Below are positions 1 through 3,580 of a DNA stretch of 20,572 bases, one piece after another. Source of the DNA: a virus; IMG/VR virus record IMGVR_UViG_3300047554_000030, positions 1 to 20,572 of that record. One strand, 5' to 3'. Both the position numbers and the translations under genes were made by a program. The notes under the pieces are model-generated. The model was not told the origin of the DNA, did not search any database, and saw only the letters and a program-made list of their open reading frames with translations. Numbering within the stretch: position 1 is the first letter of the stretch; the number at the start of each line of letters is the position of its first letter.

Positions 1-669
1 CTCATAGACGCTGATTCTTTGTGTTACGCTGTAGGGTTCTCATCAAATGATGTTGATGAAGCCCTAGCAGTGTCTCGTTTAGAATCAACAATGGTTGAGC
101 TGTGTATGGATTTAGAATGCGATGATTACAAGGGATTCCTTACAGGTAAGGGTAACTTCCGAGTAGAACTAGCAAAGACAGTTCCATACAAAGGCACTAG
201 ACCAACTGAGAAGCCAATACACCTACAAGCCCTGAGAGAGCACTTAGTGTCCTCTTGGGGTTTTGTGGTTGTAGACGGTATAGAAGCTGACGATGCTGTT
301 GGCATTGAAGCTTATAAACTACACGAAGATGAATCTATCATGGTTCATATCGACAAAGACTTAAACCAGTTCCGAGGACATCACTATAACTACCGCAAGA
401 AAGAGAAGTATTATGTCTCTGAGTTTGCAGGTTGGTATAGCTTTTATTTACAGATTCTAACTGGTGATAGGATTGACAACATTGAAGGTCTGAAAGGTAT
501 TGGACCTGCTAAAGGTGCTAAGATTCTTAAAGACTGCACCACTATTGAAGAACTATATGATGCTGTGCTTAAAGCCTACGATGGCGATACAGTGCGAGTA
601 TTAGAAAACGGACAACTACTTTATCTACAAAGAAAAGAAGGAGATGTATGGCAACCACCCCAAAGATAA
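1..669 (+). CDS. 5'-3' exonuclease / flap endonuclease (FEN family), 5'-truncated by window edge
   Basis: Phage 5'-3' exonuclease of the FEN/PIN-like family (relative of T7 gp6 and the 5' nuclease domain of DNA polymerase I), which removes RNA primers and flaps and can degrade host DNA. The frame is open from base 1 and its first visible residues, LIDADSLCYAV, match the family's N-terminal metal-binding strand, so only a few codons are missing on the left. Other family motifs: IEADD (about residue 94 of the visible frame), the acidic segment HIDKDLNQ (about 116), and the helix-hairpin-helix region TGDRIDNIEGLKGIGPAKGAK (about 154-173), which binds duplex DNA. A TTG at 19 is in frame but would delete the first metal-binding Asp, so it is not the start. 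The gene ends in TAA at 667-669 and overlaps the next gene by 22 bases. Confidence 0.9.
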   Translation, partial: LIDADSLCYAVGFSSNDVDEALAVSRLESTMVELCMDLECDDYKGFLTGKGNFRVELAKTVPYKGTRPTEKPIHLQALREHLVSSWGFVVVDGIEADDAVGIEAYKLHEDESIMVHIDKDLNQFRGHHYNYRKKEKYYVSEFAGWYSFYLQILTGDRIDNIEGLKGIGPAKGAKILKDCTTIEELYDAVLKAYDGDTVRVLENGQLLYLQRKEGDVWQPPQR

Positions 670-962
670 TCCAGGTGTCTTGGATTGATGCTGTTGCTGA
701 TGTAGGTTGGGAAGGCAAGACTAAAGCAGAGATTCACCATTGCATCACCGTAGGCTATGTTGTAGACGAGACTGACGAAGCATTGTGTCTTGCATCTACA
801 TGGTCAATAGACCAAACAAATGCTCGTATGCACATTCCTAAAGCATGGATTAAGAACAGAAAGGTATTAGCAAGTGAAAACACACCAGTGCAGAAGGTGC
901 GGGGAAAAGTATCCGCAAAGAGAGGGAAAAAGAATATGTCTACAGTGCGAATCAAAGTGTAG
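648..962 (+). CDS. Small phage protein of unknown function, 104 aa
   Basis: Not assigned to a function. The ATG at 648 has a strong ribosome binding site (GAAGGAG, 637-643) inside the end of the exonuclease gene, so the two are probably translationally coupled. Residues 1-73 look like a compact alpha/beta domain (IIQVSWIDA, then an acidic/hydrophobic stretch with VGYVVDETDEALCLAS). The last 30 or so residues are Lys/Arg-rich and low in complexity. This tail lies over the start of the endonuclease VII-type gene in another frame, so it may be a late addition created when that gene arrived. A regulatory or nucleic-acid-binding role can be imagined from the basic tail but is not shown. Confidence 0.7.
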   Translation: MATTPKIIQVSWIDAVADVGWEGKTKAEIHHCITVGYVVDETDEALCLASTWSIDQTNARMHIPKAWIKNRKVLASENTPVQKVRGKVSAKRGKKNMSTVRIKV

Positions 963-1368
963 CACTTGTAATTGTGAATTAACACCAGAAACACAAGACA
1001 AATCTTCAATGTTGTTACGCAATAGTTATAGATGTAAAGCTTGCGTTGCAGCAGGTGTTAGAAATACTGTAGACAAAGAAAAGAGAAGAGATTACGATTT
1101 AAATAAAAACTATGGAATAACCCATGAAATTTATTTAAAAATGCTTGAAGAGCAAAAAGGATGTTGTAAAATATGTGGCATTACAGAACAAGAGCATGGC
1201 AAAAGACTTCATGTTGACCACAATCATAAAACAGGTAAAGTAAGAGGTCTTTTATGTGGACGCTGTAATACTGCCATAGGTAAATTTAAAGAAGACCCTG
1301 AAATAATTAAACGAGCTATTGAGTATATAGAAAGGTGGAACAATGTTAACAAGCTCAGCGAAAAATAA
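874..1368 (+). CDS. Endonuclease VII-type HNH (His-Me finger) nuclease, 164 aa
   Basis: Related to the recombination endonuclease VII family (T4 gp49), which resolves branched DNA; phages also carry such genes as free-standing mobile endonucleases. The core is C97-C98-x2-C101, then VDHNH (114-118) and LCGRCN (127-132): paired zinc cysteines around a His-Me finger, as in T4 endonuclease VII. The N-terminus has extra zinc-knuckle pairs (C6/C9, C22/C25, C29/C32, C54/C57). The start is GTG at 874, chosen because C6 and C9 are needed to complete the first knuckle; it has only a weak AAAGGT site about 10 bases upstream. The first 89 bases overlap the previous gene in another frame. The body is AT-rich: 13 of 60 bases are G/C at 1081-1140 by hand count, against 28 of 60 in the next gene at 1441-1500, which suggests transfer. 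Confidence 0.85.
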   Translation: MKTHQCRRCGEKYPQREGKRICLQCESKCSTCNCELTPETQDKSSMLLRNSYRCKACVAAGVRNTVDKEKRRDYDLNKNYGITHEIYLKMLEEQKGCCKICGITEQEHGKRLHVDHNHKTGKVRGLLCGRCNTAIGKFKEDPEIIKRAIEYIERWNNVNKLSEK

Positions 1369-1684
1369 AGGACGGGCTTTACAAAAGTGGGTCGTCAAAG
1401 AGCTTCTAAAAAGATATCCGCAACTAAGCGAACTTGACCTTCGCAGTTGTCCTATGGGTTCTCATGGTGAAGATGTTGTGATGTCTCAAGCAGCTAAGGA
1501 TGCTATTCCTGCTAACTTTGAATGTAAGTCTTTAGCTAAGGTTGCTGTCTATAATTACTATGACCAAGCTAAGTCACACGGAAACTATGAACCCATCGTT
1601 GTAATAAAGCAAAACGGCAGAGCTCCGTTAGCGGTGATTGACGCTGAAGTATTGTTTGATTTAATGGCTGGCGGTGAAGAATGA
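1343..1684 (+). CDS. PD-(D/E)XK nuclease, Holliday-junction-resolvase-like, 113 aa
   Basis: Small conserved phage nuclease of the PD-(D/E)XK fold. In order: helix 1 with GRALQKWVVKELL and an acidic E20, then MGSHGEDVVMS with D44, then FECKS (E60-x-K62). The E...D...ExK layout is that of Hjc-type resolvases and many phage endonucleases. The likely role is cleaving branched recombination or replication intermediates before packaging, functionally like T7 endonuclease I; this is inferred from the motifs. The ATG at 1343 has AAGGTGG at 1332-1338 and overlaps the endonuclease VII gene by 26 bases. The stop overlaps the next start as ATGA. Base composition is normal for the arm, so this is likely the resident resolvase and its upstream neighbour the newcomer. 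Confidence 0.75.
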   Translation: MLTSSAKNKGRALQKWVVKELLKRYPQLSELDLRSCPMGSHGEDVVMSQAAKDAIPANFECKSLAKVAVYNYYDQAKSHGNYEPIVVIKQNGRAPLAVIDAEVLFDLMAGGEE

Positions 1685-2041: not shown

Positions 2042-2772
2042 AGATTCTTTTACTTGATATTGAAACATCGCCTAATAGTGCTTATGTCTGGGGTCTGTAC
2101 GACCAGAACATCGGCATCAATCAAATGATAGACTCATCTCAAGTTCTTTGTTACTGTGCTAAATGGCTCGGTGATAAAGAAGTTGTGTTCGATTCTATTC
2201 ACAAATCATCTCGTAAGAAAATGTTGAAAGGTATTCATGGACTTATCGACCAAGCAGACGGTGTTGTTACTTATAATGGCAATAAGTTCGATTTACCTAT
2301 TCTTAACAAGGAATTCTTACTTCATAATTTTAATCCACCATCTCCTGCTAAGAAGATTGACTTACTTCGTACTGTTAGGAGCAACTTTAGGTTTACTAGT
2401 AACAAACTAGATTATGTCTCTCAACAGTTAGGACTCGGAAAGAAAGTAGACCATGAAGGATTTGAACTTTGGCTTAAGTGTATGGATAAAGATAATGCAG
2501 CTTGGAGTCGTATGGAAAAATACAACATCCAAGATGTCATCTTATTGGAGAAGTTATACTATAAGCTTTTACCTTGGATTAAATCGTTGCCTAATCGCAA
2601 TCTTAACACGGATAATCATGTATGTCCAAGCTGTGCTTCGACAAAGATACAAAAGCGTGGATTCTCTTTGGCAGCAACAGGAAGCTATCAAAGGTATCAA
2701 TGCAAAGACTGTGGTTCGTGGAGTCAAGGGACTACAGCGGTTAAAAAAGGTATCAAGATTAAAGGAATATAA
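2038..2772 (+). CDS. DnaQ-like 3'-5' exonuclease with C-terminal zinc ribbon, 244 aa
   Basis: RNase H-fold exonuclease of the DEDD superfamily, related to the exonuclease domain of family B polymerases and to YprB-type nucleases. Exo I is LLLDIETSP with D7 and E9. Exo II is YNGNKFDLPIL with D85. Exo III is YNIQD with Y162 and D166, the DEDDy form. Residues 196-225 hold two cysteine pairs (CPSC and CKDC) forming a zinc ribbon like those that bind nucleic acid. It probably trims 3' ends or degrades host DNA; whether it proofreads for a phage polymerase cannot be told here, as no polymerase is in the window. Start and stop are both overlap-coupled (ATGA upstream, TAATG downstream). Confidence 0.85.
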   Translation: MKILLLDIETSPNSAYVWGLYDQNIGINQMIDSSQVLCYCAKWLGDKEVVFDSIHKSSRKKMLKGIHGLIDQADGVVTYNGNKFDLPILNKEFLLHNFNPPSPAKKIDLLRTVRSNFRFTSNKLDYVSQQLGLGKKVDHEGFELWLKCMDKDNAAWSRMEKYNIQDVILLEKLYYKLLPWIKSLPNRNLNTDNHVCPSCASTKIQKRGFSLAATGSYQRYQCKDCGSWSQGTTAVKKGIKIKGI

Positions 2773-3356
2773 TGAAAAATTACAGAGATAATCCAGTAGC
2801 TATGCCTACATTAGGTGAGTATATTAAAGCTTTAGAAGGTTTAGAAGACAACGGAGATGTGATGTCTCGTCAAGTAGACTGTAAACCGATAGAAGGGTAT
2901 GAAGGCGATTACGACATTTATACAGACGGTCGTGTTTTTTCTTATAAATCAAACAGGTTTTTATCTCCAAGCAACGACAAAGACGGATATAAAAAAGTTG
3001 TTTTATGTAAAAACGGTATAAAAGGGCATTTTCGTGTGTGTAGATTAGTTGCAAAAGCCTTTGTTGCTAATCCTGCAAACTATCATTTAGTCAATCATTT
3101 AGATGAAGACAAAGCAAACGATAATGCTAGTAATTTGGAATGGACAGATAACTATGGTAATTGGAAACATAGTGAAGACTCTATGCCTGTAAAAGAAACA
3201 GCTGTGATTAAACTAACACTAGATGGAGATTATATTTGCGAGTATAAAGGTTTAATGGACGCTGCTAGAGATACTGGAGTATGGCAAGGAAATATCAGTA
3301 ATTGTTTATCAGGAAGATGTAAATCAACAGGGGGATATAGATGGATAGCGAAATGA
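2772..3356 (+). CDS. NUMOD4-HNH-NUMOD1 homing endonuclease, fused to a foreign N-terminal leader, 194 aa
   Basis: Mobile HNH endonuclease. Residues about 38-65 match NUMOD4 (PIEGYEGDYDIYTDGRVFSY). The HNH_3 core is RLVAKAF, VNHLDEDKANDNASNLEW (107-124). Residues 145-192 resemble a NUMOD1 DNA-binding helix segment ending in GGYRW. Such enzymes cut a specific site and spread by copying. Residues 1-35 are not part of the family and end in MSRQV, very close to MARQV at the start of the conserved part of the downstream DUF3310 protein. The endonuclease therefore seems to have been inserted in frame after the resident gene's first 35 codons. It uses the resident TAATG-coupled start and overlaps the next start by 16 bases. 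Confidence 0.85.
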   Translation: MKNYRDNPVAMPTLGEYIKALEGLEDNGDVMSRQVDCKPIEGYEGDYDIYTDGRVFSYKSNRFLSPSNDKDGYKKVVLCKNGIKGHFRVCRLVAKAFVANPANYHLVNHLDEDKANDNASNLEWTDNYGNWKHSEDSMPVKETAVIKLTLDGDYICEYKGLMDAARDTGVWQGNISNCLSGRCKSTGGYRWIAK

Positions 3357-3379
3357 TGGAAATAATGGCTCGTCAGGTT
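2862..3379 (+). repeat. Imperfect direct repeat flanking the homing endonuclease body
   Basis: ATGTCTCGTCAAGTA (2862-2876) and ATGGCTCGTCAGGTT (3365-3379) match at 12 of 15 bases, lie 503 bases apart, and encode MSRQV and MARQV in the frames of the endonuclease and the DUF3310 protein. They bracket the NUMOD4-HNH-NUMOD1 coding region almost exactly, as expected of the two edges of an insertion that rebuilt the interrupted gene's start. Confidence 0.6.
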
Positions 3380-3580
3380 TCAGGAAACCACTATAAGAAA
3401 GCTATTCAGCCTTGGGATATCATTGATGAATGGAATCTTAATTATTGGGCTGGTAATGTTATTAAATATGTGTTACGATATCCATATAAGAACGGTGTTG
3501 AAGACTTAGAGAAAGCTAAACACTATTTAGAATACTTAATCAAGAAGGAAAAAGATGCCTCTATTGCTACACGAGATTAA
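3341..3580 (+). CDS. DUF3310 family protein, 79 aa, with a probably truncated N-terminus
   Basis: Small phage protein of the DUF3310 family, seen in many podoviruses. The family pattern is ARQVSGNHYKKAIQPWDII (10-28), then the WAGNVIKYVLRYPYKNG core (36-52) and a helical EDLEKAKHYLEYLIKK tail. Related T7 genes are placed in nucleotide metabolism, which fits its place before the reductase, but the activity here is not shown. The chosen start is ATG 3341, with GGGGG at 3330-3334 as ribosome site. ATGs at 3353, 3356 and 3365 are in frame too. The first eight residues (MDSEMMEI) look improvised and lie over the end of the endonuclease gene. See the finding on gene splitting. Confidence 0.85.
   Translation: MDSEMMEIMARQVSGNHYKKAIQPWDIIDEWNLNYWAGNVIKYVLRYPYKNGVEDLEKAKHYLEYLIKKEKDASIATRD

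Follow-up and report, generated by a model that had tools for sequence, protein, structure and literature searches.

Homing genes need to enter conserved genes without causing the death of their carrier, and introns and inteins manage this by splicing. Several mobile endonuclease genes follow other routes. Free-standing endonucleases of the T4 type use host promoters and can split genes, as with mobE in nrdA of Aeromonas phage Aeh1 and mobA in the topoisomerase gene of T4, where both halves of the split gene persist as separate, assembling proteins (PMC2988022). The hidden HNH of ShiLan, inserted in a phage methylase, is likewise neither intron nor intein; translation continues through its insert in the frame of the host gene, and the HNH is out of frame (PMC11855218). 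In fungal mitochondria, mobile ORFs with a replacement C-terminus are known from atp6 of Allomyces and from atp6, atp9, cox2 and nad3 of Glomus; there, a free-standing LAGLIDADG or GIY-YIG endonuclease gene brings a diverged copy that replaces the 3' end of the host gene (PMC3630166). Synthetic home-and-rescue drives, which are engineered, CRISPR-based elements used in insects, carry a recoded substitute for the target piece that they destroy (PMC7968924). Among Lactococcus skunaviruses, the approximate positions of I-HmuI-like HNH genes have been mapped, some beside core genes such as sak, and marker exclusion against sk1 has been observed for some of the enzymes (PMC12724721). Start codons and overlaps did not come up in a text search of that study, and no description of a 5' version of a resupplying mobile ORF was found in the open-access literature, subscription papers lying outside the search.

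The window analysed here, a stretch of 20,572 bases forming an IMG/VR virus record, contains such a 5' arrangement. Comparison with relatives makes it highly probable that a free-standing NUMOD4/HNH homing gene was inserted in the 5' part of a DUF3310 gene, borrowed its start and supplied a replacement (Table 1); cleavage, homing and expression are inferred, as are all start codons. As with mobE and mobA, a free-standing HNH gene splits a phage gene without intron or intein, but here the N-terminal piece joins the endonuclease and the remainder is rebuilt with a new start. The ShiLan insertion differs: in the window, the HNH shares the reading frame of its leader, and the host gene has a restart of its own. 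As fungal mobile ORFs do, the inserted gene appears to import a diverged version of a piece of its host gene; by analogy, the phage arrangement is their mirror image, since the 5' end is replaced, by NUMOD4/HNH and Endonuclease VII genes, and the endonuclease takes the resident start too. The likeness to home-and-rescue drives, a homing element carrying a substitute for the destroyed piece, is an analogy only.

Table 1. Features of the two insertion loci in the window
Feature	Position	Strand	Basis or remark
Endonuclease VII gene	874-1368	+	PF02945, Pfam E=8e-27
Captured resolvase start GTGAAAACACA, now Endonuclease VII start	874-884	+	identical to resolvase start of L001
Inserted Endonuclease VII part	885-1368	+	missing from all relatives compared
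Replacement Shine-Dalgarno AGGTGG and ATG for resolvase	1333-1345	+	inside Endonuclease VII 3' end
Resolvase-like gene (phrog_244), rebuilt start	1343-1684	+	overlaps Endonuclease VII by 26 nt
Imported 12 codons of resolvase 5' end, TSSAKNKGRALQ replacing TQSAKAKGRNLQ	1349-1384	+	boundary against L001
NUMOD4/HNH endonuclease ORF	2772-3356	+	194 aa
Captured leader, codons 1-35: original start and 5' end of DUF3310 gene, now endonuclease N-terminus	2772-2876	+	homologous to uninterrupted leader-DUF3310 proteins of 44 contigs
Left 15-bp repeat copy (MSRQV), host-native; possible internal start ATG 2862	2862-2876	+	ATGTCTCGTCAAGTA
Endonuclease body (I-HmuI-like), own start codon absent	2877-3356	+	Pfam, PHROG, 1u3e alignment
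Replacement Shine-Dalgarno GGGGG (3330-3334) and ATG 3341	3330-3343	+	within C-terminal GGYRW codons of the endonuclease, other frame
DUF3310 gene, rebuilt N-terminus MDSEMMEI-MARQV-SGNHY..	3341-3580	+	79 aa; PF11753
Right 15-bp repeat copy (MARQV), replacement copy	3365-3379	+	ATGGCTCGTCAGGTT

The uninterrupted form of the target gene is widespread. An IMG/VR search with the DUF3310 protein returned 80 loci, and in 44 viral contigs (L001-L044) a single unbroken frame runs from a leader through [ML][SA][RK]QV and xGxHY into the DUF3310 domain. The leader of these proteins follows the pattern ..P[VI]AMP...EDxGD[VI][ML][SA][RK]QV and is joined straight to GGNHY, as exemplified by L010 (MSGNHNMYSSPVAMPTLGEYYKGLEDQGDVMSRQVGGNHYKRACQPW), while L045 and L046 have an unbroken DUF3310 frame with a different leader. 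The site is thus polymorphic, the endonuclease being present in the window and absent from all 46 intact relatives. The closest of these, L001, is collinear with the window (main aligned flanks 91%, 86% and 85% identical) and lacks both the NUMOD4/HNH and the Endonuclease VII gene. Because more distant relatives are unbroken too, insertion rather than loss explains the difference, and the interrupted state is the derived one. The initial annotation, made from the sequence alone, had held that the endonuclease gene split a DUF3310 gene and that a search with the leader joined to DUF3310 should recover uninterrupted homologues; the 44 contigs, whose proteins span the junction, bear out both points. 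It had also regarded the 35 N-terminal codons as foreign to the endonuclease family, a claim that finding the leader on other NUMOD4/HNH proteins would have refuted. None was found among the homologues inspected: residues 1-35 are missing from eight annotated phage homologues, all of which start at or just before the EIWKDIxGYEG NUMOD4 motif, and the leader is likewise lacking in almost every one of some 30 further viral homologues, a few of which have short unrelated extensions.

Beyond the leader, the protein is an I-HmuI-like endonuclease. Pfam places NUMOD4 at residues 38-78 and an I-HmuI NUMOD-like domain at residues 157-190, with PF07463 and PF22083 exceeding the cut-off, and the HNH endonuclease families phrog_59 (E=6e-34) and phrog_959 span the body. 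The alignment to I-HmuI (PDB 1u3e, E=1e-13) starts at residue 36, and in an AlphaFold2 model pLDDT is mostly 95-98 over the body against 59-83 at residues 1-30. Residues N108, H109, N121 and N130 are invariant across the family. At residue 90 (window 3039-3041), the near-invariant His of the family (VHRLVA) is replaced by Cys, which leaves the activity of this endonuclease uncertain. Its own mobility is also not directly seen, because close relatives are lacking: IMG/VR yielded a single match at 38%, and the genome contigs none.

The manner in which the two genes are read follows from the position of their start codons. The first 41 codons of the inserted body contain no in-frame start codon, so translation of the endonuclease must begin either at 2772, where DUF3310 originally started, or at the ATG at 2862, which derives from the host gene. 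The earlier proposal that the leader start drives the endonuclease stands for the captured start, with the refinement that the internal ATG, whose anti-Shine-Dalgarno pairing is -6.6 kcal/mol, could serve as an alternative. The ribosome site of its own that had been assigned to the DUF3310 restart is likewise present, and start 3341 pairs at -9.4 kcal/mol, where the best 1% of random positions reach -8.4. This ATG straddles the AGA TGG codons of the conserved GGYRW motif of the endonuclease, the GGYxW form of which is found across the family, and the two genes overlap by 16 nt. The rebuilt DUF3310 protein retains PF11753 at residues 16-64 (50.6 bits against a cut-off of 24). The two MxRQV segments indeed form the direct repeat noted initially, with 12 of 15 bases identical between ATGTCTCGTCAAGTA and ATGGCTCGTCAGGTT, a level attained by 8e-4 of all ATG-to-ATG pairs in the window. 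Compared with close intact relatives, the left copy matches at 10-15 of 15 bases and the right copy at 9-13. For the right copy, the bin means are 10.6 and 9.5 of 15 bases, those found among relatives being 11.7 and 12.1, and its possible recoding is only weakly supported.

A second insertion of this kind is located in the same window, at the start of a resolvase-like gene. The Endonuclease VII gene is absent in 33 of 33 relatives with a comparable site, where the empty site has a gap of 23-26 nt. In L001 the resolvase-like gene begins GTG AAA ACA CAA TCA GCG, and this GTG start (GTGAAAACACA) has been taken over by Endonuclease VII. The resolvase restarts at ATG 1343, with a pairing of -7.2 kcal/mol. 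From ACA onwards, 36 nt of the rebuilt gene match L001 at only 23 positions, and the sequence beyond at 47 of 48, a sharp boundary; the same stretch is about 90% alike among relatives. This indicates that a replacement 12-codon 5' end arrived with the insertion. The imported codons resemble another lineage, L011, and were perhaps acquired by co-conversion from an L011-like donor. The insertion also replaced the C-terminal tail of an upstream overlapping gene (window 648-962; L001 1217-1537), in which 27 residues with 10 K/R gave way to 25 residues with 9 K/R, encoded in another frame of the endonuclease 5' end. At the start of the ribonucleotide reductase gene, relatives carry two further endonuclease types (L004 1914-2399; L011 2912-3274), and the reductase ATG lies within their last codons. 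Such endonucleases also occur in L003, L021, L024 and L030 and are missing from L001 and L022/L025/L029.

Gut phages provide an independent case, in which movement as a unit can be followed. The target gene starts MATIK[AS]YTD-LEQSKKLAEILP (the MATIKxYTD-LEQSKK gene), is intact in many contigs and is interrupted in L206, L209, L211 and L213; in L214 the cassette is also present, but its endonuclease frame is broken. In each case the endonuclease consists of a local leader (MATIKSYTD, MKSYTD, MATIKSFTD or MATIKAYTD) fused in frame to EIWKDVVGWEG, and the gene restarts as METS[VI]NNK[CR][KR]AF[TA]S-LEQSK. As at DUF3310, the two genes overlap by 16 nt and the ATG straddles a TGG codon. Sequence identity between these contigs amounts to 81-98% for the endonuclease, in which indels are absent, and to 83-95% for the rebuilt start, whereas it is 40-46% for the 400-nt left flanks and 60-72%, with indels, for the remaining host gene. 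Conservation of endonuclease and rebuilt start within diverged flanks is direct evidence for one mobile unit. The co-movement expected of a mobile ORF of the fungal type is found in the gut phages for endonuclease plus rebuilt start; the resolvase shows the 12 imported codons, and at DUF3310 only one copy is known, the part concerned being 5' and not 3'. The captured and rebuilt five-codon copies of the gut phages share 6-9 of 15 bases, and recoding of the rebuilt copy is clear both here and at the resolvase. A search of the cultured-phage collection with the joined protein gave no match. L225 (around 2001) has the rebuilt start METSVNNKCKAFTS but no upstream endonuclease, which is likely a scar of endonuclease loss. 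In L159 (1923-2969) an HNH gene also starts with MATIKAYTD, a leader of the captured type, but the LEQSKK gene does not follow it, and L159 was for this reason excluded as a gut-phage case; the different gene found downstream would fit either a joint relocation of leader and endonuclease or a substitution of the target.

A further case is found in isolated phages, the Lactococcus skunaviruses, whose HNH genes belong to the same endonuclease family and genus as those mapped previously (PMC12724721). In CHPC361 and JG8 an HNH gene is inserted at sak; it begins MSVFE-TFVKI, and Sak restarts MSVFE-QLN. The repeat is exact in CHPC361 (15/15), ATGAGCGTATTTGAA being followed by ACTTTTG at the HNH start and by CAACTT at the sak restart, and the repeat copy is not recoded. 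The site is empty in p2, sk1, RM5 and CHPC959, while the related HNH of bIL170, CB20 and 1W08F begins MSEVE instead. Among the matches listed, 25 records, some of them RefSeq duplicates, contain the complete captured left junction.

Recognisable start duplication is uncommon among viral HNH loci and is not general: of 80 viral NUMOD4/HNH loci surveyed, L134 from Lactococcus alone passed 12/15. The sole IMG/VR match to a DNA pattern of MS[RK]QV plus the NUMOD4 motif, L083, was judged to be a chance match without endonuclease context. In eight phage HNH homologues (L109-L116) the following gene starts directly after the HNH gene or in its last 47 nt, and several of them have GGAGG within the final HNH codons.

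Other explanations of the DUF3310 locus can be considered. One possibility is that the endonuclease resides in a self-splicing element, either group I intron or intein, and that splicing of RNA or protein unites leader and DUF3310. In-frame fusion to the upstream exon is frequent among intron endonucleases, and I-HmuI itself is intron-encoded. Yet the 488 nt between the repeat copies (2877-3364) are nearly all endonuclease coding sequence, which leaves no room for a ribozyme outside the ORF, and no Rfam intron family matched at the gathering threshold or at a relaxed E-value. Leader and DUF3310 lie in different frames, the latter with a strong Shine-Dalgarno sequence and ATG of its own; a stop codon at 3354-3356 ends the endonuclease frame, and Pfam gave no splicing-domain match. 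A self-splicing element is thus very improbable. Even less credible is an assembly chimera of two phages. The endonuclease allele at DUF3310 is known from one contig only, but its two junctions keep the reading frame and a functional restart, a single relative, L001, is collinear with the window on either side of the insert, and the same design exists in isolated, sequenced phages.

The insertion could instead have broken the DUF3310 gene, leaving a decaying or non-functional remainder, and the conserved leader motifs PVAMP and EDxGD are indeed missing from it now. This is unlikely given that the domain is complete, its core aligns with intact relatives without indels at a dN/dS of 0.09-0.24 (much of the divergence may predate the insertion), and its new start has a strong Shine-Dalgarno sequence. 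In addition, leader length varies among relatives, and the downstream gene is also intact in the gut-phage and resolvase cases. Ordinary recombination deserves slightly more weight, though still little: it would have placed the endonuclease ahead of a DUF3310 allele of foreign origin with the native start MDSEMME (MDSEMMEIMARQV), the repeat then being the conserved RQV of two alleles and no cassette with a rebuilt start being involved. The differing codons of the right and left copies fit this reading, as does the L011-like character of the imported resolvase codons, which donor co-conversion would produce. None of the DUF3310 relatives inspected, however, has an MDSEMME-type start, whose discovery would also have refuted the initial annotation. 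Moreover, the new start sits within the endonuclease's own final codons, and in the gut phages endonuclease and rebuilt start are co-conserved across unrelated flanks.

Insertion of a homing gene with start takeover therefore remains the preferred reading, and the anatomy of the insertion is well supported. Sequence comparison shows an inserted unit without a start codon, fused in frame to the resident leader, so that its translation is inferred to depend on the ribosome site and start of the resident gene. Its 3' end provides, in another frame, a Shine-Dalgarno sequence and an ATG, together with a short copy that stands in for the first conserved codons of the target, and the resident gene is inferred to restart inside this end with its conserved domain intact. 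Endonuclease and rebuilt start would travel as one unit, joining any leader present, as observed in gut phages and inferred for the window. The enzyme may cut uninterrupted alleles near the MSRQV codons, and repair of the break from the endonuclease-bearing genome would drive spread; the insertion and the altered right-hand copy may protect the new allele from cutting, and translational coupling over the 16-nt overlap may keep the resident gene expressed. Precise insertion, a captured start, a startless body and a rebuilt start can be demonstrated, at the level of sequence, in three phage groups and two endonuclease families. Recurrence in the window and, independently, in two unrelated phage groups makes the arrangement look like a way to insert without breaking the target gene.

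Start takeover combined with a replacement start would allow homing genes to enter conserved genes without splicing machinery. It would also account for odd N-termini and short overlaps near phage HNH genes, and it cautions against taking captured leaders for endonuclease domains in annotation. Isolated Lactococcus phages with (CHPC361, JG8) and without (p2, sk1) the insertion make cleavage, homing and translation testable. It is possible, though tentative and still short of probable, that these cases represent a phage class of startless homing cassettes, comprising at least two families (HNH and Endonuclease VII), which are read from the start of their target and carry at their 3' end a recoded, uncuttable target 5' end that restores the gene. 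Such a class, if true, would be a natural counterpart of the engineered home-and-rescue drives.
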